Part shown: one piece after another, positions 1 to 28,275 of the stretch
Numbering within the stretch: position 1 is the first letter of the stretch
How the letters are laid out: the number at the start of each line of letters is the position of its first letter
IMG/VR virus record: IMGVR_UViG_3300021957_000143
Coordinates: 1-35,107 of that record
DNA: 35,107 nucleotides
DNA from: a virus
Strand: one strand, 5' to 3'
Notes under the pieces: model-generated
Seen by the model: only the letters and a program-made list of their open reading frames with translations
The model's database searches: none
Told to the model about the DNA's origin: nothing
Program-made: the position numbers and the translations under genes

Positions 1-890
1 ATTCCACCTTTAGGTGTTTGAATTACTACTTTCTTATCAGGAGTAGAAGAAAGTTTTATGTTATGCTTAGTTTCAACATCAATTATTTGTTGTTTTATTT
101 CAGGGTCACTCGTTAAAGCCGCAACTCTAGTATATCCCTGTGTTTTTATTGTAGCGATTTTATCAAGCAAATCATCGGCTAGCATTAAAGGCTGTCCTGT
201 TTTTGGAATTGCAGAACTAGTAACTACGGGTTCAATTCTTCCACCGATAGTAGGTGAAGCTTCACCAGAAACGGGTTTAAACCCTTGAGTTAAGTAACCG
301 CTTGGAACTCTTGGAGCTTTTTGCAAGTATTTAGCTGCAAAATTAGATTGCGATACGCTTCCAGCTGCTCCAGGAATAAAGCCTCTACCTCTATCAACAC
401 GACTAAAGCCGGCCCTTCCACTAAAATCTGTGATATCGTCGGGTGTAATCCCAAGAGCTGTAGGAGCAAACCCTCGAGTTGCTCTTATTCTTCTGGCTTC
501 ATCTAGCCCGGCGTCTCCTGCTCTTGGAGGGGCATATTTTCTAATACTAGTTTTTTCTGAAGCGGAAGCGGCCATGTTTTTTGCCACACGATCGACCGTT
601 TTTAAACCTGCTAAACCTGCAGCAATTGTTGCAGCTTTTTTTATAAATCCAAGGCCGAAACCGCCGCCACCTCCGTCACCGTCGCCCAAAGCTGTCGAAG
701 CCCCCGCTATACCTAAACCTCCTATAGCAGCACCACCCATTCCGCCTCTTTTTTTAGATTCTCGGGCTTTTTCTTTCTCATCTAACTGCTGTCGTTTTTG
801 ATCTTTAAACCAGGCAGTAAAGTTTTTATTGATAGAAGCCGTATCAGACTTTATATCTTTTAGGTTTTGGTTAACTTGCTTAAGTATCAT
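1..890 (-). CDS. Probable tail tape-measure protein (gp29-like), N-terminal part, runs off window
   Basis: An open reading frame of 296 codons runs leftward from ATG at 890 to the window edge with no stop, so only the N-terminus is visible. The start follows directly on the stop of the preceding ORF and has a good Shine-Dalgarno (AAGGAAG, four bases before ATG). Residues 1-47 are charged and helical. A Gly/Ala-rich hydrophobic stretch follows at about 49-70 with a poly-Gly run near 74-78, then a second Ala/Gly-rich helix. I do not recognise a named domain. Tape measure is inferred from position: in long-tailed phages the tape-measure gene lies directly after the tail assembly chaperone pair, which is the arrangement here. 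T4 gp29 (tape measure) or another hub-assembly protein is possible. Confidence 0.5.
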   Translation of the reverse strand, partial: MILKQVNQNLKDIKSDTASINKNFTAWFKDQKRQQLDEKEKARESKKRGGMGGAAIGGLGIAGASTALGDGDGGGGGFGLGFIKKAATIAAGLAGLKTVDRVAKNMAASASEKTSIRKYAPPRAGDAGLDEARRIRATRGFAPTALGITPDDITDFSGRAGFSRVDRGRGFIPGAAGSVSQSNFAAKYLQKAPRVPSGYLTQGFKPVSGEASPTIGGRIEPVVTSSAIPKTGQPLMLADDLLDKIATIKTQGYTRVAALTSDPEIKQQIIDVETKHNIKLSSTPDKKVVIQTPKGG

Positions 891-1070
891 TTAACTTCCT
901 TGCCTATCGGCTTCTTGTTTCTTAAGATCTTCCATCAATAAAGTTATATAAATTTCTCTTTCCCACGGCATCATTCTTTCAAGATCATCTAAGTTATAAT
1001 TATAATTTTGCAGCAGCTGATAATTAATTCTATAATGATTCACCAGATTCTCATGAGAAAGAGCTATTAA
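891..1070 (-). CDS. gp51-like / tail-assembly-chaperone C-terminal ORF, probably expressed by -1 frameshift from gp26
   Basis: This 59-codon frame (leucine codon TTA at 1068-1070, stop TAA at 891-893) has no usable ATG near its 5' end. The only in-frame ATGs are the pair in its second half. It is in the -1 frame relative to gp26 and begins exactly at the T-run where gp26 ends. Translation gives a short helical protein with Asn/Tyr-rich and acidic parts and a core motif DDLERMMPWEREIYITLL. Motifs like this are typical of T4-like hub assembly protein gp51 and of tail chaperone C-terminal (T) domains. A GTG at codon 10 (six bases after GAGA) could give an independent 50-aa product, so frameshifting is likely but not certain. 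The fused product would be about 296 aa. Confidence 0.7.
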   Translation of the reverse strand, partial: LIALSHENLVNHYRINYQLLQNYNYNLDDLERMMPWEREIYITLLMEDLKKQEADRQGS

Positions 1071-1780
1071 AAAAAATCAGATAATCCTTCTAGTGTATAT
1101 TTATTCTCTTCACCGCAACTTTCGCATTTATATTCTACATCTTGAGATAGCTTTGGTAAATCTTGTACAAATTCCATCATCTTTGCGTACTGATCAGATG
1201 AAAGATTATTAATAAACTCTTCGATTTCTTCTCTTGATTCATCCGTAAAATCTAAGAGCTCATCCGGAGTATGTAATTTATCTAGACACATAATCAGCAT
1301 CTGAAAAACTAACTCATTGATATTATCAACTTCAAGTGTTTCTTTATTATCAATGATTTGTTTATATCCTGGAAATTTTAAATCTATGGTATATTCTTCG
1401 TTTATCTTTATTCTCTTTTCAGGAAAAGAATTAGGATCAATATTGATTTCTTCTAATTTAACTACAACTTGATTTTGCTGCTCGCATGATTGACATGCCA
1501 TAGCAATATTACTTGTTTCTCCTACAGCCTTTGATCTAATTTGTAAGAAAAGATATTCAACATCAAATACAGTAAGACTATCGGGATCAAGCTTTTCTTC
1601 TATGCAATCTAAAACTGTATCAAGTATAGCTTCTGCGATATGAGCTCGATCATCGCTTTCAAAAGCTATAAGAAGAATCTTCTCTTCTCCTACATTGAAA
1701 GGCCTAAATCTAATTTGTTGTTGAGTTGATGGCACGGTTGTGCTATACATTGGAAATGTATTAATTTTTGGTAAAGCCAT
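1067..1780 (-). CDS. 26: Baseplate hub/assembly protein gp26-like with zinc-binding CxxC pairs
   Basis: A 237-aa protein that I place in the T4 base plate protein family (T4 gp26, 208 aa). It has two CxxC pairs, C96/C99 (CQSC) and C219/C222 (CESC), spaced as in a split zinc ribbon. The middle is rich in acidic residues and helices. It ends in Asp-Phe-Phe-stop encoded by GAT TTT TTT TAA, a perfect T TTT TTT slippery heptamer. The next ORF starts in the -1 frame, so this gene probably plays the lambda-G role, with a minor frameshifted longer form. It lies between a tail-tube-type protein and the presumed tape measure. In T4, gp26 belongs to the hub assembly pathway. The zinc role is inferred from the cysteine spacing. 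Confidence 0.75.
   Translation of the reverse strand: MALPKINTFPMYSTTVPSTQQQIRFRPFNVGEEKILLIAFESDDRAHIAEAILDTVLDCIEEKLDPDSLTVFDVEYLFLQIRSKAVGETSNIAMACQSCEQQNQVVVKLEEINIDPNSFPEKRIKINEEYTIDLKFPGYKQIIDNKETLEVDNINELVFQMLIMCLDKLHTPDELLDFTDESREEIEEFINNLSSDQYAKMMEFVQDLPKLSQDVEYKCESCGEENKYTLEGLSDFF
1069..1076 (-). promoter_or_regulatory. Candidate -1 ribosomal frameshift site (T TTT TTT followed by TAA)
   Basis: On the minus strand the end of gp26 reads GAT TTT TTT TAA TAG, so eight consecutive T include the X XXY YYZ heptamer T TTT TTT in the correct register, with the 0-frame stop immediately after. Slipping back one base reads TTA ATA GCT and continues for 59 codons. Only a weak downstream structure is visible: a 12-base palindrome TTCTCATGAGAA at 1048-1059, which could fold as a 4-bp stem with a 4-base loop. 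Confidence 0.65.
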
Positions 1781-1795
1781 AATAAGTTATCCATT

Positions 1796-2407
1796 TTAAA
1801 TAGTTCGAGTTGTTTCCCAATTCGTATATGTTAGTGAAACGTTTAAATCTGATACTGCATCAGTGCTAGCATCGCTAAATGCAATACCATTCATAGTATT
1901 TGGAAATGCGTCAATAAGAGTACATTCATGCACTACATCAGTGCTAGTATTAATTGAAACATTAAAATTAAATATGCCCAAACTTAAATCTGCTATAGAT
2001 TGCGATTGATATACGGGCAAATCTGTACCATGCTTTAGTTGTCTAATTCTAACGGATTTGGCATATTCATTTTTAAATCCAACTTCTTTTGTCTGTTGGT
2101 TAAATGCCTTGTTCTGCCAAAACTCAAAATACTTGCGAACTCCATAGTCATTCATTAATCTAAATGTCATTGAAATTTCTTGAGTTAAATATCCATAAGC
2201 CATCGGCTGAGTTACGGGTCCGATAGTCTTTTCTCTAGTAGTAATCTGTCTACCTGGCATAGTTACTTCAGTACAAAATAAAGAAATATTATCACTTCCA
2301 AATTCAGCTATTCCAAATGAAGGGAGTATTACTTGAAATACATTAGGCTTTGCAAAGCCTTTATGTTGTCTAGCTTTTGATTTTAAATCATCAATAGAGA
2401 TTCCCAT
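1796..2407 (-). CDS. Tail-tube-fold protein, probably baseplate tail tube initiator gp54-like
   Basis: A 203-aa protein with the general pattern of T4 tail tube and tube-initiator proteins. There is an N-terminal helix, then FAKPNVFQVILP (compare gp19 FARPNLFQVEI), then a cysteine strand with MPGR. A beta-strand containing MTFRLMNDYGVRKYFEFW follows, and the C-terminus ends in SLTYTNWE, like the final strand of gp19. Its ATG overlaps the stop of the upstream gene by one base. The true tail tube gp19 is normally next to the sheath gene, whereas this gene is next to gp26 and close to gp48. The initiator gp54 is therefore the better guess. The family (tube fold) is fairly secure and the exact member is not. 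Confidence 0.6.
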   Translation of the reverse strand: MGISIDDLKSKARQHKGFAKPNVFQVILPSFGIAEFGSDNISLFCTEVTMPGRQITTREKTIGPVTQPMAYGYLTQEISMTFRLMNDYGVRKYFEFWQNKAFNQQTKEVGFKNEYAKSVRIRQLKHGTDLPVYQSQSIADLSLGIFNFNVSINTSTDVVHECTLIDAFPNTMNGIAFSDASTDAVSDLNVSLTYTNWETTRTI

Positions 2408-2991
2408 TAGATAGCCTTTCTAGAAGCTTGGTAAACACTTGATGCGCTACCCTTTTGCCAATCTGCGGTCGGAAGAAATGTTGCAATCTCCCACTCAGGC
2501 GCGGGCACGCGGGCGAATCTACTTTTGACATGATCTGTTAAGTAGTGTTTCACACAAGGTTTGAAGTATTTCATTTTAGTTGAAGCTTTTAACATTCTAT
2601 AAGTTACCATAAATCTGGCATCGTCAGTGTACATTTTATTGTTTACAGTATCCATTAACCCGTCTAAAAATTTAGCTCTGAGAGTTGGTGGCAAGTAATG
2701 CAAATTTAAACCTAAAAAACCGCCAGGTGCTTTATCAATAACAATGCTTAAAGGAAAGCTATCATAGTAAGGCAACTTATCCTTATGTTTAGGTTGATAA
2801 AAAAACATATACATCGATCCAATGATCTGACGATTCTGCAAATCAATCGGTTCTTCTCGCATCAATTGATTACGATTGACACGTCTTAATGCTTGTGCTT
2901 TTCTACGAAACCAATCTCTGGATTCTTTTGTTCTAGGTGTAATCCCAGCTCTAAAAGCTTGTAGTTCTAAGTTTTGAAATAAATTGCTCAT
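2407..2991 (-). CDS. Conserved T4-like virion-associated protein next to gp4
   Basis: A 194-aa basic protein. It starts with a helical Arg/Lys-rich segment (residues 20-45) and has a conserved-looking core with GGFLGLNLHYLPP near 90-102. A basic C-terminal half contains FKPCVKHYLTDHVKSR and a PEWEIATFLP motif. It is translated four bases after the gp4 stop and overlaps the next gene by one base, so it belongs to the same leftward unit. I recognise the type from marine T4-like phages but not a proven function. A DNA end protector (gp2) role is a possible label because in T4 gene 2 neighbours gene 4, but I cannot confirm it from the sequence. Confidence 0.5.
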   Translation of the reverse strand: MSNLFQNLELQAFRAGITPRTKESRDWFRRKAQALRRVNRNQLMREEPIDLQNRQIIGSMYMFFYQPKHKDKLPYYDSFPLSIVIDKAPGGFLGLNLHYLPPTLRAKFLDGLMDTVNNKMYTDDARFMVTYRMLKASTKMKYFKPCVKHYLTDHVKSRFARVPAPEWEIATFLPTADWQKGSASSVYQASRKAI

Positions 2992-2995
2992 ACTT

Positions 2996-3487
2996 CTATT
3001 TATTCACTTTCTTACGCAACGGTTTAAGAGGTTTAATAGTTTTTCTGGGATTAGGTAATATGCCCATAGACTTTAGTGTATTCTCGGTCCATATCTGGAA
3101 CTCATAACCGTTATCCTGAGCATATTTTTGAGCTGCTGACCATTTATTCATATTCTTAACGTATGTCATACCTTCATTAATATATCTCTTAGTTTTTCTT
3201 CCTTTAAAACTTGGCGGCTTAGTTTCTTTATCCGGTTTAATTTCAACTAAAATAGTTTTACCGTCTTTAAAATTAATTTTAAGATCCATAAAATATCTAT
3301 GGTATTTCTTATCTACTTCATAAAAATAAGGAATTACTGTTTCTTCGCTTGACCACCCTACTACTTTAGGGTTATCATCACACCATTTAAAACAATGTCT
3401 TTCCCATAAAGACCTAAATATAACACCATCCGGATCTCCACGGTATTTATTTCTGTGTTTTACTTTATATCGACCAGAATAAGCCAC
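2996..3487 (-). CDS. 4: Head completion protein gp4 (TnsA-type nuclease fold)
   Basis: A 163-aa protein closely matching T4 gp4 (150 aa). The start MAYSG, the GDPDG and FRSLWER region, SSEETVIPYF, HRYFMD, VEIKP and the C-terminal WSAAQKYAQDNGYEFQIWTE all have clear T4 counterparts. gp4 completes DNA-filled heads before tail joining. Residues E29 (SLWER), D68 (YFMD), E82 and K84 (VEIK) fit a TnsA-like PD-(D/E)XK nuclease core, and all are present here. It is the first gene of the leftward unit, with a 52-base gap to the divergent gp48. The C-terminus is a Lys/Arg/Pro-rich tail of about 15 residues. Confidence 0.88.
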   Translation of the reverse strand: MAYSGRYKVKHRNKYRGDPDGVIFRSLWERHCFKWCDDNPKVVGWSSEETVIPYFYEVDKKYHRYFMDLKINFKDGKTILVEIKPDKETKPPSFKGRKTKRYINEGMTYVKNMNKWSAAQKYAQDNGYEFQIWTENTLKSMGILPNPRKTIKPLKPLRKKVNK

Positions 3488-3539
3488 CTAAAATCCTTAT
3501 AAATAGTTTCAATATTTCTATTTATTAAGGCTTAAAAAT
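3488..3539. promoter_or_regulatory. Divergent late promoter region
   Basis: This 52-base gap separates the leftward (gp4) and rightward (gp48) units. On the plus strand an exact T4 late box TATAAATA lies at 3499-3506, about 33 bases before the gp48 ATG. On the minus strand AATAAATA (3520-3527), one base off consensus, lies about 32 bases before the gp4 ATG. The two boxes lie between one another's start sites, so the promoters are interleaved. T4 late promoters need only this -10 box plus the phage sigma (gp55), sliding clamp (gp45) and gp33. Confidence 0.7.
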
Positions 3540-4697
3540 ATGGCGAAACCGTGGATAGACCCAGATAGACCAGACACAGAACCTAAAACGTTTGAAACAG
3601 AAATCACTGGGCCAGTACGAAGACAAGTTTTAAGATTTCCTAGAGATAATCAATTAGACTATCCTGGCACTATACAGTTTGATTTATTACAGGCTCTCGA
3701 ATTAAACACTAGTAATATCAAAGGTTTTTGGAGTACGGCCAAGAGCATGGGTTCAGCTTTTGGAAATGCATTTAATGCAGCTTATAATGATGATACTGAT
3801 CTAGATAAGTTAGAAAAGCAAAAATTGTTTGATGAACAAGGGATAGATGATGAGGGATTGGCTGCAGCACAAAATGCTTCTAACTTTGTAACTGAAAGAG
3901 AAGTTAATAGAGTCAATAGAATTGATAGACAAACATTATCTGTTGGAAAGTGTACTTTGTATTTACCACAGCAGATTGTAATTCAAGACGGAGTTTCTTA
4001 CGGCGATATTGATTTAGGTAGAATAGGCCAAGCAGCTTTCCAAGCTTTGCAACAAACCGGTGATATAACAGAAGCTGGTAATGTAGCAGCTGCTCAAGCT
4101 GGAAGAAATACTGTAGAATTTTTAAAAGGTTTTAGTCCTGATAATTTATCAAAGATGTCTTCGAGCAGAGCGGCGTTTATTGTCGATCAAGTTCAAAGAA
4201 AAACATTAGGAAGGGGCGGTAGTGCTGGAGGTTTTAGGCAATCTACTTCTGGTGCCATTAGTGCAGGATTAGGTGTTAGTGTTAATCCTAATAAATTATC
4301 ATTATTTAGATCTGTTAATTTAAGAAGATTTCAACTAAATTTTAAACTAATTCCTAATAGTAGATTAGAAGCACAAGAGATAGAAAAAATAATTAAATTC
4401 TTTAGATCCGAGCTTTACCCTGAAGGGATTTATATAGGTGGGGTTTCTGTTGGTTATAAGCATCCTAAAAAATTTAGAATTACGATGGCTTATCGCGATA
4501 AAGAAGTAGCTACTCGTCTATTGCCAGTGTATTTAGAAAGATTTGATACTAATTATAATCCGTCTACTATGTCTATGCATTATGACGGAGAAAGACCTTA
4601 TTTCCCGGAGATTGATATATCCATGGCATTTGTAGAAGAAAGAGCATTAGTCAAACAAGATATTACAGATGATCTAAATAATGGTGGAGGACACTAA
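3540..4697 (+). CDS. 48: Baseplate tail tube cap gp48-like
   Basis: A 385-aa protein, close to the size of T4 gp48 (364 aa). The N-terminus is Pro/Asp-rich and is followed by LRFPRDNQLDYPGTIQFDLL, resembling the early FPTGRASGNDTTEDF region of gp48. A long flexible middle (about 60-210) follows. The C-terminal part is tube-like, with strands such as LNFKLIPNSRLEAQEIEKI and KHPKKFRITMAYRD, and ends near DIDISMAF-like strands (residues about 270-370). gp48 sits with gp54 at the top of the hub and nucleates the tail tube. The gene opens the rightward unit, 33 bases after a late box, and its stop overlaps the gp53 ATG (TAATG). Confidence 0.65.
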   Translation: MAKPWIDPDRPDTEPKTFETEITGPVRRQVLRFPRDNQLDYPGTIQFDLLQALELNTSNIKGFWSTAKSMGSAFGNAFNAAYNDDTDLDKLEKQKLFDEQGIDDEGLAAAQNASNFVTEREVNRVNRIDRQTLSVGKCTLYLPQQIVIQDGVSYGDIDLGRIGQAAFQALQQTGDITEAGNVAAAQAGRNTVEFLKGFSPDNLSKMSSSRAAFIVDQVQRKTLGRGGSAGGFRQSTSGAISAGLGVSVNPNKLSLFRSVNLRRFQLNFKLIPNSRLEAQEIEKIIKFFRSELYPEGIYIGGVSVGYKHPKKFRITMAYRDKEVATRLLPVYLERFDTNYNPSTMSMHYDGERPYFPEIDISMAFVEERALVKQDITDDLNNGGGH

Positions 4698-6277
4698 TGA
4701 GTTATTTTAGAAATTTCCCGCTATATCCATATAAATTTGGAAATGAAGCCGAAGCCAACCTTATTCAGAACTTAAGTGTTTATGTTGATTTAGTTGAAGA
4801 ACTAACCAGCGATGATATGAACGTATACGAGATTCAATACGTTAAGGACGGAGAAAGACCCGACCAGATGTCTCAAAGGATATATGATACTCCAAATTAT
4901 TATTGGACATTCTTTTTTGCAAATGAAAAGTTGAGAATAAGCGGTTGGCCATTAGATGAAAACGAAGTTTTTGATGTAGCCAAGAAACATTATCCTAATA
5001 TCGTTTTAACTACTGAAGGCGCGATGAGTGAAAAATTTAATGTAGGCAATGTGGTAATTCAAGAACCAACTCAATCATCTGATGTATTTTCTGGACCAAT
5101 ATCTATTGGTAAAATTATAGAGAAAAATTTAGATATGGGCCAATTGGTAATCGAACCCTACAACGAAGTAAATGGATTTACAATTACTAATCCAGGTAAA
5201 GGATATGTTAAAGCTCCTTTAGTTACACTTTCAGGTGGAGGCGGAACAGGAGCCACCGCTGTTGCAGGAGTAACTAATGGAATAATTACTTCTATTACTG
5301 TTTCAGATGGAGGTACTGGATATACTTCAAGACCTACTGTTGCTATCTCAGATCCAGATGTAATTAACTGGAGTTCATTTAGCCAGTACGTGTCTAATTA
5401 TCAATTAGCTAAATTACCTGACACCATTAGGGGAATGGCGCAATATCTTTTAGAGTATATAGTTAATATAGGTGGTAATCCAAATCGAATAATATTTTGG
5501 GAAGAAGAAGTTTCCAGCGGTAGAAAGCGCGGTGATTTAAATGGCAGCGGAAGTATAACTCTTACTGATGTTATACTGCTATTACAGATCGCCGTAGGAA
5601 TATCTGTTCCGACATCAGTTAATAATCATTATAATGCCCATATTGCCCCTCAACTTGACGGTGAAGTAGGCTCTCTTACAGGAGTTTATTATGATTTTAT
5701 TAAGCAAGTAGTAAATGGATATGAAATAGCAGACATTGATATGGATGGAACGGTTTCAAAAAAAGATGTTAATATTATAAGTAGGTATAATGTCAATAAA
5801 GCTGATCCTAGAATATCTGAAGCTATTAGACTTAGATTTGAAGTTATACAAAATACAATTGTACAAAACTCTGCGACTTATCCACAATGGAATCCAGGCG
5901 GAGGTATTGAAAAGGCAACAGCAACATCTGGTATAACTAATACGTCATTTAAAATAGATCAAACGATATATTCAAGTAATACTAGTACTGAATATAGGAA
6001 TTGGGATGTTTCAGATGTTAAGACTTTAGCAGTCGAAAACGCACAGAAACAATATGATGCCATTCATCATTATGAAGATGCAAATGGAGATTATTTAGAT
6101 TTAGAAATTACAAATGATGATGGCGGTGTATTAATTCCTACGGTCTTTTCTTCAGCTATTACAAACTTAAATAGATTAAAAACTTTAAACGACGATCTTA
6201 AACAAATTAAAGTTTTAAAGCCCAGCGCTATATCAAAATTAAATACAGAATTCCAAAAGCTTTTGAAAAATGGATAA
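4697..6277 (+). CDS. 53: Baseplate wedge protein gp53, enlarged, with dockerin-like insertion
   Basis: A 526-aa protein against 196 aa in T4. Residues 1-105 match the T4 gp53 N-terminus (FPLYPYKFGN, then RIYDTPNYYWTFFFANE, and GWPLDENEVF). The last 75 residues match its C-terminus (LKQIKVLKPSAISKLNTEF; T4 has LRQIKIIAKSDINSFMNDF). Between them lies an insertion of about 300 residues. It holds two Gly-rich strand repeats (GKGYVKAP at 168-175, GTGYTSRP at 207-214) and then two dockerin/EF-hand-type loops. Loop 1 has D280, N282, S284, D291. Loop 2 has D346, D348, D350, D357. gp53 joins wedges into the ring around the hub. The loops should bind calcium if they follow the dockerin rule (inference). 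Confidence 0.8.
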   Translation: MSYFRNFPLYPYKFGNEAEANLIQNLSVYVDLVEELTSDDMNVYEIQYVKDGERPDQMSQRIYDTPNYYWTFFFANEKLRISGWPLDENEVFDVAKKHYPNIVLTTEGAMSEKFNVGNVVIQEPTQSSDVFSGPISIGKIIEKNLDMGQLVIEPYNEVNGFTITNPGKGYVKAPLVTLSGGGGTGATAVAGVTNGIITSITVSDGGTGYTSRPTVAISDPDVINWSSFSQYVSNYQLAKLPDTIRGMAQYLLEYIVNIGGNPNRIIFWEEEVSSGRKRGDLNGSGSITLTDVILLLQIAVGISVPTSVNNHYNAHIAPQLDGEVGSLTGVYYDFIKQVVNGYEIADIDMDGTVSKKDVNIISRYNVNKADPRISEAIRLRFEVIQNTIVQNSATYPQWNPGGGIEKATATSGITNTSFKIDQTIYSSNTSTEYRNWDVSDVKTLAVENAQKQYDAIHHYEDANGDYLDLEITNDDGGVLIPTVFSSAITNLNRLKTLNDDLKQIKVLKPSAISKLNTEFQKLLKNG

Positions 6278-24027: not shown

Positions 24028-24242
24028 TGATGAGGTATCAGAAAATAGATGGACATCCTTATCTAGTAAGAGATAAAAATTCAGGCGCTATTTTGAATAT
24101 AAATAGAGAAGAGATTCAAAAAAAGAAACAGCAGAGATTAAAATCGCTTCAAAAAGATAATGAAATTGAAATATTAAAGAATGATGTTAGTGAGATTAAA
24201 AATCTATTGCAACAGTTGTTAGAGAATAATAAACATGGCTAA
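24027..24242 (+). CDS. Small helical protein upstream of collagen-like fibre
   Basis: A 71-aa protein. The first 27 residues ([20 protein letters not shown]) look like a short beta hairpin. Residues 28-68 form a strongly charged coiled coil with leucine/isoleucine heptads ([20 protein letters not shown]). Its start overlaps the previous stop (TAATG) and its end overlaps the fibre ATG by eight bases. Such translational coupling suggests a fibre-associated oligomerisation or assembly factor. No function is known to me. Confidence 0.55.
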
Positions 24243-27200
24243 GATACCTTATGTAAACCTCACAGATAATCTTAATACACATAGAATTCGTACGAATCAG
24301 ATTATCGATTCAGTCGGTGATCTTGCTACACTAACGATGCAAGATAATGAAACGATTGTTTCTGCTTTAAATGAACTTGATAGCGATCTTTTTGGAGTTG
24401 GCGGCGGAAATGCCAAAACCGCTTTATCTACTACTGCTAATCATTTCGAAGGTGCAATTAGAGAACTAGACTCAGATATCGGACCGAGACCTCATACTAC
24501 TTTAACGACTGATAATTTAAATTTAACTGATGCACTAAATGAATTAGATTCTGATTTAGGCCAAAGAGAAACTCTCAATACTGATTGGTTAAAAACTAAT
24601 TACCTAGGAAGTCTTCCAGGTAGTCTGACCAAATATGGGCAGCAAAGCGTAGTCGCTGCTATCAATGAAATTGACTATAGATTAGATTCGATTGATCCTC
24701 TAATTGATCAGGCTGTTCTTGCTAGCTCAAACGTAACATTTAATCAAGTAAATGTTGGAACATATCTAAATAATGATAACTCAGTTTATACTGATGCCGG
24801 TGTAACTCGGACAGGTAGTTATACTATTGATGTTTCAGGTGATATCATACTTGATGCCGATGGCAATGATATCTCAATTAAAAATGGTGGTGGTGCTGAT
24901 CAGGTAGACTTAAAACTAGCGGATAACGCATTATTTACTATTGACGCTCCTGATGATATTGTACTAGATGCCGATGGCGGAAATGTAACGTTTAAAGATG
25001 GCGGAACTACATATATTGATTTTGTTGCTGGTACAGTTGTAGATTCTTCAGTAGCCATTGAAACTCCTGGCGATTTACACTTAAGTCCTGCTGCAGGTAG
25101 AGAAATTCAAATTAAAGATGGCGGAACACACATCGGGCATTTGAAAAAGATTGTTGGTGGATCTGGCCTTGAAATAGCAAGTGAAAATAATAAAGCACAA
25201 ATAAGATTGCAAGATTCTGCAATTACTATCGTAGGTGATCTAACGGTATCTGGAACAACTACCTATGTCAATACCGCAACATTAGAAATTAACGACAATA
25301 TTATGTTGTTAAATCGTGATGCTACTGGAACTCCTTCTGAAAATGCTGGATTAGAAGTTGAAAGAGGTGATAAGCCTAATGCTAAATTTGAGTGGAATGA
25401 GGCCCAAGATTTTTGGACAGCATCTTATGATAGTACTGGTACGCCCGTAGAAGTAGTAACTACTACAAAAACTGGTACACTAAATTTAAATATTTCAGAG
25501 CAACTTAATATTGACGTCGCTGATACTATTACATTCTTAGATGAAGGTGTAGGATCACTATCCTTCAACATGGACGGAAATACTTCTGCAACCCTTGATG
25601 CTGCAGGAGACTTAAGAGCGGATGCGGCAACTGGTATTTTTGCTCTTGATAGAAATGCAACACAATACGCTAGTTTCGATGAGAATAGCGGGAATTTGAT
25701 TATTAAATCAGGTACTACAACTGCTGCTACTTTCTCTGGCGCAGATGTTACTTTAGCGGCCGACTTAGCCGTTACCGAAGATTTGACCGTTGGTGATTCG
25801 GCCAGAGTCAATGGAAATATGTCTATCGGCGGTGGTTTAAATATTGGTGGAACTTTAAATGCTGATGGTAATGCTACATTACATGGAACATTAGATGTTG
25901 ACGGTGCAACAACTTTAGACTCTGCTACTATTAACGGTACCTTATATGTGGACGCTGCTGCTACCTTTGATAACTTTGTAACATTAGGTGCTAGCGGATA
26001 TACGGTAAATATTTTAGCAGATAATACTGATATTACAAATACTTTAAATGTTGATGATGCTGTTGACTTTAATTCTACTTTAGCTGTTCAGGGCGTTACT
26101 ACCGTTTATAGCAAAGTCGATATGAATAGCAATGATATCGATAACGCAAAAGATATTTACTTACAAGATAAACTATATCATGACGGAGATACTAACACTT
26201 ATTTAGGATTTACTGCAGACGCTGCTACTATACGAACCGGTGGAACAGATAGAATTTCTATAACAAATGATAGTACGACTATTAGTAATAATTTATTAGC
26301 AACAGATAGTGCTACAATTTCAAATAACTTAAGTATCGGTGGAAATACTGCAGTTACGGGTTTACTTACAGTAGGAGATAGTGCAACTGTTACGGGTGAT
26401 ATTAGTGGTGCTAATATTGCTTCAACCGGTACATTAACTGCTGGTACTAATTTATTCGCAACTGATTCTTCAAAAATCGATGATAATTTGCATGTCAGCT
26501 TAAATTTAACTGTTGGCGCCGATTTAACCGTTGGTGATGATCTTCATGTAGTTGATAATATCACTGCAAAAGGTGATATAGAAGCGGGATTTGGAGCTGC
26601 AGGATTTGGTAAAGTTGAAGGCTGGAATTTCAACGTTAAAGACAAAATTATAACTCCTAGAACCGGCAATAACGCCAGAATATATTGGGATGAAACTTCT
26701 GATAGATGGCAAGCTGATCAAGGCACAGGAACTTTTGTAGAGATTTTGACTGTAGATTCTGATGGCTGGCATAATAGATCATCTATTACTGGTGCAGGTA
26801 TTGATGGAGCAAATGACGAATTAATTGTCTATGATAAGACTGCAAGCGAATGGAAAAGAGCTGCAGTTGATGAAGTAGCTCTTCAAGGTGTACAGGGTAT
26901 TCAAGGTATATTAGGTACTCAAGGCACAAACGGTACTGCAGTTACTATTGTTGGTAACGTAGCCACCGTAGGTGATTTACCAGGAAGTGCTAATAACGGT
27001 GATGGTTATTTAGTTGATGCTGATGGACACTTATATGTTTGGTTCGGCTCTTCATTTACTGATGTTGGAGAAATTAGAGGTCCTCAAGGTCTTACTGGGG
27101 TACAGGGCACAACCGGCCCACAAGGTATTCAGGGTATTCAGGGCCGTCAAGGTACTCAAGGTCGTCAAGGCATTCAAGGTATTTTAGGCAATCAGGGTAC

Positions 27201-28275
27201 AACCGGAACCCAAGGTACTACGGGTTCTCAAGGAACCACTGGTACTCAAGGCGGAATAGGCGCAACAGGCGCAGTAGGACCTTCAGGAGCAGTAGGTAGC
27301 TCAGGCGCTGTTGGTTCACAGGGAACGACCGGAACGCAGGGTACGCAGGGTACTACCGGAGCAACTGGAGCAACTGGACCAACTGGCGCTACCGGCCCTC
27401 AAGGAACGACCGGAACGCAAGGTACTCAGGGTACACAGGGTACAAAAGGCGCGCAGGGTACACAAGGTATACTCGGTGGCACAGGGGCGACAGGACCTAC
27501 TGGATCTACTGGACCTACTGGTGCTACCGGGTCTCAAGGAACGCAGGGAACGCAGGGAACACAGGGTACACAGGGTACAAAAGGCGCGCAAGGTACACAG
27601 GGAACAGATGGATCTCAGGGTACACAGGGAACAGATGGATCTCAGGGTACACAGGGAACACAGGGTCCACAGGGGACAGATGGATCTCAGGGTACACAAG
27701 GCACAACCGGATCTGGTACGCAAGGACCAGAAGGAGCGCCCGGTGGTACTGGACCTACTGGCCCAACAGGACCTACCGGACCAACTGGGCCGGCTAATAG
27801 TATTGATACAGCATCAATCAGTAGCGGTACGTATTATCCAGTTCTAGCCTCTGGTACTTCTGCTACTACTCCTAGAATTATGAATGCCGCAAATAGTCAA
27901 GGATCTAATTCATCTCACTTAAGTATTAATGCCGCGACTGGTCATTTAACTGTAGGTGGTGATATTACTTGTGAAGATTTGTGTTCATACTCAGATGCTA
28001 CATTGAAACAAAATATTAATCCGCTAGAAAACGTATTAGATATAATCAGCAAGATTAATCCTGTTAGTTTTGAATGGAAAAATAAAAATAAAGATGGTCA
28101 GAGTTTTGGAGTTATTGCTCAAGAGATTGAAGAGATTATTCCTGACATTGTAAGTACTAATATGCCAGTAGGTGGAAGTGAAGTTAAGAAAACGGTTAAC
28201 TATATGGGATTGACCGCATTCTTAATTAAAGCTATTCAAGATCTTGAAAAAGAAATAAAAACGTTGAAGAAATAA
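24235..28275 (+). CDS. Collagen-like tail fibre with S74 intramolecular chaperone
   Basis: A 1346-aa fibre. The N-terminal half is a repetitive beta shaft with strands such as [11 protein letters not shown] and ALNELDSDL (three copies near the N-terminus). A short Gln/Gly stretch at about 883-900 is followed by a globular segment ([20 protein letters not shown], residues about 917-945). Uninterrupted Gly-X-Y repeats then occupy residues 949-1187. The C-terminus is a peptidase S74 chaperone, with SDATLKQNI giving the Ser1253/Lys1258 dyad, followed by [17 protein letters not shown] and a helical tail. Such domains fold fibre trimers and then cut themselves off before the Ser, releasing about 94 residues. 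Binding is expected at the outer cell surface. Confidence 0.85.
27079..27795 (+). repeat. Collagen-like Gly-X-Y repeat region, with 27-base repeats
   Basis: Gly-X-Y triplets (mostly GTQ, GTT, GPT, GAT and similar) run for 239 codons without interruption. At the DNA level a 27-base unit beginning ACAGATGGATCTCAGGG is tandem at 27604-27630 and 27631-27657, with a third copy at 27676-27702 separated by 18 bases. All copies are in frame, so repeat-number changes would leave the fibre in frame. Longer blocks (for example at 27320 and 27402, or 27430 and 27565) are also near copies. Confidence 0.85.

Follow-up and report, generated by a model that had tools for sequence, protein, structure and literature searches.

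A probable -1 ribosomal frameshift joining gp26 to a gp51-like tail in marine T4-like phages, and its relation to T4 genes 26 and 51

The gp26 gene of a marine T4-like phage very probably gives rise to two proteins from one start through a -1 ribosomal frameshift at a run of T, as judged from the sequence of the gene and of its relatives. The window, i.e., the whole 35,107-base virus record analysed here, covers the tail and baseplate region of the phage. Most ribosomes would terminate at the TAA that follows the heptamer T TTT TTT, yielding a 237-aa gp26 (the short, TAC-N-like form), while a minority would slip back one base, with both tRNAs re-pairing on the U run, and translate 59 more codons to give a 296-aa gp26–gp51 fusion. 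The slip would probably be assisted by an upstream GGA/GGAGG-like sequence pairing with the 3' end of 16S rRNA. Homology together with T4 and lambda genetics suggests that the short and long forms act as chaperones of tail (hub) assembly whose ratio has to be fixed, and both homology and the logic of the gene order make the T4-superfamily counterpart of lambda gpG/gpGT the most likely identity of the pair. The slippage in the cell, its rate and the chaperone function are inferred.

The slip site and the -1 frame in the window

On the minus strand, in the order of transcription, a head-closure gp4-like gene (3487..2996) is followed by the DNA end protector gene (2991..2407), a tail-tube-like gene (2407..1796; phrog_45, E=3e-28), situated directly upstream of gp26, and gp26 itself (1780..1067), whose zero-frame stop is TAA 1069-1067. 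The 3' end of gp26 reads GAT TTT TTT TAA within a run of eight T (1076..1069), which contains the slippery heptamer T TTT TTT (1070..1076) with the stop directly after it. A -1 slip on this heptamer leads into ...SDFF-LIALSHENLV...RQGS, the tail annotated in marine phages as gp51 (1070..891, minus strand; 59 codons, 1070..894, then TAA 893-891), with the predicted junction-spanning peptide ...DFFLIALSHENLV... in the fusion. The first ATG of the tail is found only at the MM of its core, and the first alternative start, which is also the sole plausible internal one, is a GTG at codon 10 (1041..1043), not conserved among relatives. The run, its register and the adjacent stop (1076..1067), the 59-codon frame without an ATG start and, on translation, the lengths of the two products are all as the earlier note had described them.

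The site is exceptional in its surroundings. The 35 kb contain, on both strands, a single T8/A8 run, that at the end of gp26, while shuffled sequences have a mean of 11. Among the 13 in-register slippery heptamers present in the window genes, the one in gp26 alone both lies where its gene ends and leads into a long -1 frame, open for 59 codons versus at most 29 at the other twelve.

Both parts of the predicted fusion belong to the T4 gp26/gp51 family. The short form matches Pfam PF12322 T4_baseplate (E=6e-55) and phrog_150 (baseplate hub, E=2e-54), and the tail matches the C-terminus of gp51 (phrog_634, 'baseplate hub assembly catalyst', E=1e-20), so that the resemblance of its core to gp51 remarked on earlier holds. 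A further match of the tail (E=2e-8) is to the very C-terminal end of phrog_150, the gp26 family, in itself a hint that the two parts constitute one protein. The PF12322 gene and the tail occur once each in the whole record; this being a 35-kb fragment, the phage may carry a separate full-length gp51 beyond it. A PDB sequence search found no meaningful relative.

The stop of the tail (TAA 893-891) abuts the ATG (890-888) of the next ORF (3..890, minus strand), the beginning of a protein of ca. 560 aa that runs off the contig and is complete in the relative L002. The abutment had been noted before, together with a probable identity of the next gene as the tape measure; the latter found no support, the best profile match being phrog_14441 with E=0.04-0.08. 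In L002, whose gp26 is 96% identical, the next gene (3391-5082) contains an extra tandem copy of ca. 30 residues as compared with the window (ALGITPDDITDFSGR...RGRGFIP repeated), and its protein therefore seems to vary by repeat number. Two further genes of the window, both on the plus strand, are worth mentioning. One (4697..6277) codes for a gp53-like baseplate wedge protein (PF11246, E=0.002) into which a calcium loop resembling that of dockerins is inserted (Dockerin_1, E=2e-4, narrowly below the Pfam cut-off), unusual for a phage baseplate, and the other (24235..28275) for a 1346-aa tail-fibre-like protein with a long run of collagen-like GTQGTQ/GPT repeats ahead of the C-terminal domain.

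Conservation of the site and alternative explanations

A scan for close relatives based on gp26 only gave just three loci, and the tail motif M-P-W-E-R-x-[IV]-Y, independent of the slip site, which lies 35 codons further upstream, was used instead. Searching 2.9 million viral contigs for this motif as degenerate DNA, with the addition of named phages and the window, provided 124 distinct usable loci. The slip site is present in all of them as TTTTTT followed by C (67 loci), T (37) or A (20), never by G, and the distance from it to the MPWER of the tail is exactly 35 codons without exception; the zero-frame stop of gp26 lies 2-3 codons past the first TTT in 123 loci. Read in the zero frame, the run has wobble positions at its first and fourth base, and both are T in 124/124 loci, while T is found at comparable wobble codons elsewhere in the same genes with frequencies of 0.77 and 0.78, and an in-register heptamer at 9 of 27,871 codons. 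The 124 loci are related and do not represent independent trials, so naive probabilities derived from these counts overstate the case; nevertheless, the site is without exception also among 74 of the loci whose pairwise differences here exceed 20%. The similarity of the tail proteins starts right after the slip site. The comparison with relatives that the earlier note had proposed as a check did not refute the frameshift and supports it, with the run and the register retained at a fixed spacing and the wobbles invariant.

An additional conserved element, absent from the earlier note, precedes the run. In the window it is the Shine-Dalgarno-like AGAAGGA (1085..1091, minus strand), a putative stimulator of the -1 shift, located 8 nt upstream of the heptamer and 9 nt from its first full codon. 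The computed strength of duplexes between the mRNA and the 16S anti-Shine-Dalgarno sequence peaks sharply ca. 8-14 nt before the run across the loci, with a mean of -5.8 versus +1.0 kcal/mol at control positions; the duplex in the window has -4.8 kcal/mol. In a thinned set of 74 sequences, Glu codons at this position are biased to GAG (p=1e-5) and Gly codons to GGR (p=3e-4). At bacterial -1 sites Shine-Dalgarno-like stimulators are effective 9-14 nt upstream (PMC5009743). A search for a downstream stem-loop or pseudoknot found none (RNAalifold predicted no structure for the 74 sequences, and the window has a z of +1.33), so the efficiency of the shift may be low.

The tail could instead be a separate small gp51 with a start of its own, GTG 1043 in the window and ATG in a part of the relatives, at which ribosomes would initiate internally or through coupling to gp26 termination. 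Public records do annotate it so, e.g., with the gp51 start of P-SSM2 placed 3 nt past the gp26 stop, and in the KVP40-like PVA8 and in YC of the Ackermannviridae a start overlaps the gp26 stop. However, the positions of the starts are not conserved. No ATG occurs in the first 18 codons of the tail in 92/124 loci, and 53/124 loci have no ATG, GTG or TTG there; the check for a start of the second frame suggested by the earlier note thus revealed no conserved one. In C48C1, Mosig and Melnitz 'gp51' is annotated from internal methionines located well inside the conserved tail, and in ACG-2014e, S-CAM1, DSL-LC03, CC2 and S13 the tail is unannotated. Moreover, a separate gene leaves the fixed T wobbles, the T run and the fixed spacing unexplained, the Shine-Dalgarno-like element stops 8 nt short of the run and is not followed by a start codon at a distance suited to initiation, and T4 gp51 has the tail joined to a gp26-like domain. 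For lack of conserved starts this was rejected as the main reading and is considered improbable. As expected of a tail assembly chaperone (TAC) pair made by frameshifting, the -1 frame is open from the slip site, conserved, and devoid of a conserved start of its own.

RNA polymerase slippage on the T run, giving mixed mRNAs from which the fusion would be made by standard translation, would suit the eight T of the window, but in 87/124 loci the run consists of six T only, closed by C or A and preceded by a base that is never T. This argues against transcriptional slippage, since it is the heptamer and its register that are conserved and not the length of the run, and a Shine-Dalgarno-like element at a fixed spacing is expected for ribosomal rather than transcriptional slippage; this explanation was rejected and appears very unlikely. 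Homopolymers are error-prone in sequencing, and a single gene with a miscounted run could produce the same picture. Such an error was already excluded by the relatives, given that the same architecture recurs in 124 loci of varied run lengths and sequences, isolate genomes included, and its probability is negligible. Frameshifting by the ribosome is thus the preferred explanation.

Distribution and relation to T4 genes 26 and 51

The T TTT TTC or T TTT TTT heptamer with a -1 tail is also found in Vibrio phage PVA8 (KVP40-like), Aeromonas phage CC2, Cronobacter phage S13, Sinorhizobium phage phiM7 and Stenotrophomonas phage Bhz51. The tails of phiM7 and PVA8 match phrog_634 (E=5e-21 and 3e-20, respectively). 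For the tail of Bhz51 the match is weak, with an E of about 0.001 when a handful of sequences was searched. In Det7, YC, D528 and KNP4 of the Ackermannviridae a related -1 tail lies behind a shorter T TTC (L140:2165-2417, L141:2125-2390, L142:2195-2405 and L143:2200-2450). This weaker site possibly reflects a different shift signal or translational coupling, the latter being conceivable in YC because of the ATG overlapping its gp26 stop. The jumbo phage Asteriusvirus UB (L144:2090-2366) has T TTT TTC immediately ahead of its gp26 stop, together with an open -1 frame; its tail displays no significant similarity to gp51.

A profile built from the marine gp26–tail fusions was aligned to the T4-type proteins. 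It crosses the junction in gp51 of Aeromonas phage 31 (77 bits, positions 21-287) and of T4 (46 bits, positions 23-280), i.e., the fused product is colinear with the single-ORF gp51 of T4-type phages, while T4 gp26 aligns with it only up to position 236, which is the slip site. Thus, T4 gp26 resembles the short product and T4 gp51 the fused one, with the difference that in T4 the pair consists of two divergently placed paralogous genes and involves no frameshift. The tail profile matches gp51 of T4, Aeromonas phage 31, CHI14 and RB43 at 23-40 bits, and the likeness of the marine tail to gp51 is, from these alignments, one of homology. Gene 26 is short, and gene 51 long and separate from it, in T4, CHI14 and Aeromonas phage 31; RB43 has a long gene 51.

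T4 gp26 and gp51 are also similar to each other (BLASTP E=2e-6). A tree built on the domain common to all of them places the gp26 and gp51 rows of T4 type together (92/93), with all the frameshift-type rows on the opposite side. Being unrooted and long-branched, this tree favours a single duplication in the T4-type branch, short of proof. Taken jointly, the data make it moderately probable that the frameshift is the ancestral mechanism of producing the chaperone pair across the T4 superfamily (Kyanoviridae, KVP40-like and other Straboviridae, and with the weaker T TTC in Ackermannviridae), driven by a U run and an internal Shine-Dalgarno sequence without RNA structure, and that the T-even/44RR/RB43 branch of Straboviridae gave it up, in a single event, for the duplicated genes 26 and 51. 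The pair offers a clear example of a recoding event apparently swapped for gene duplication, and it gives T4 gp26 and gp51 a concrete, testable role as the short and long assembly chaperones.

Known systems and the annotation of marine gp51

According to the review of Atkins et al. 2016 (PMC5009743), long-tailed phages 'except T4' have the G-T shift conserved. As in lambda G/GT and its relatives, such as P2 E/E+E' (PMC5009743), one tail-region gene here would encode a short product and, in minor amounts, a version extended in the -1 frame, the first ORF carrying the shift site at its 3' end and the second having no start of its own. The proteins differ in belonging to the PF12322 T4_baseplate family, with no demonstrated homology to lambda gpG, and the site differs in being T TTT TT[C/T/A] with a Shine-Dalgarno-like upstream element; downstream, where lambda has its tape measure gene, the next gene of the window gave the weak phrog_14441 match as its best. 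The TAC frameshift of Vandenendeviridae and Andersonviridae, with its invariant GTTTTT (PMC12846349), is likewise a poly-T -1 shift at the TAC-N end with the tail misannotated as a separate gene, but it occurs in other phage families and has a shorter poly-T motif. The E. coli dnaX site shares the Shine-Dalgarno-like stimulator, effective for -1 shifts at 9-14 nt (PMC5009743), and differs in possessing a downstream stem-loop, not found here, and in spacing, which in the window is 8 nt to the heptamer and 9 nt to its first full codon.

The earlier note had read the pair as a frameshift, which the comparison with relatives supports, and did not mention that such a pair is already described in T4-like phages. 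Vladimirov, Gautam and Davidson 2022 (Virology 566:9-15) had identified which proteins of T4-like phages are the tail assembly chaperones. Citing papers credit them with poly-T -1 signals in T4-like TAC-N genes (PMC12846349) and with the finding that in some T4-like phages frameshifting gives way to two genes, a short one and a long fusion (Vladimirov et al. 2022, via PMC10885494). On this account the idea is largely published. The specific case, the figures for its conservation, the Shine-Dalgarno-like element and the place of the duplication in the tree are added here and may be new.

Cyanophage and marine vibriophage gp51 were reported to be devoid of the first ca. 200 residues, so that the cyanophage protein, at some 20% of T4 gp51, looked truncated (Sullivan et al. 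2010). If marine 'gp51' is the transframe end of gp26, as proposed here, this truncated look is explained, and public genomes misannotate or omit the tail. With no start codon near the slip site, annotators began 'gp51' at internal methionines (loci L004, L008 and L009) or left the tail out (L005, L010, L011, L136 and L137).
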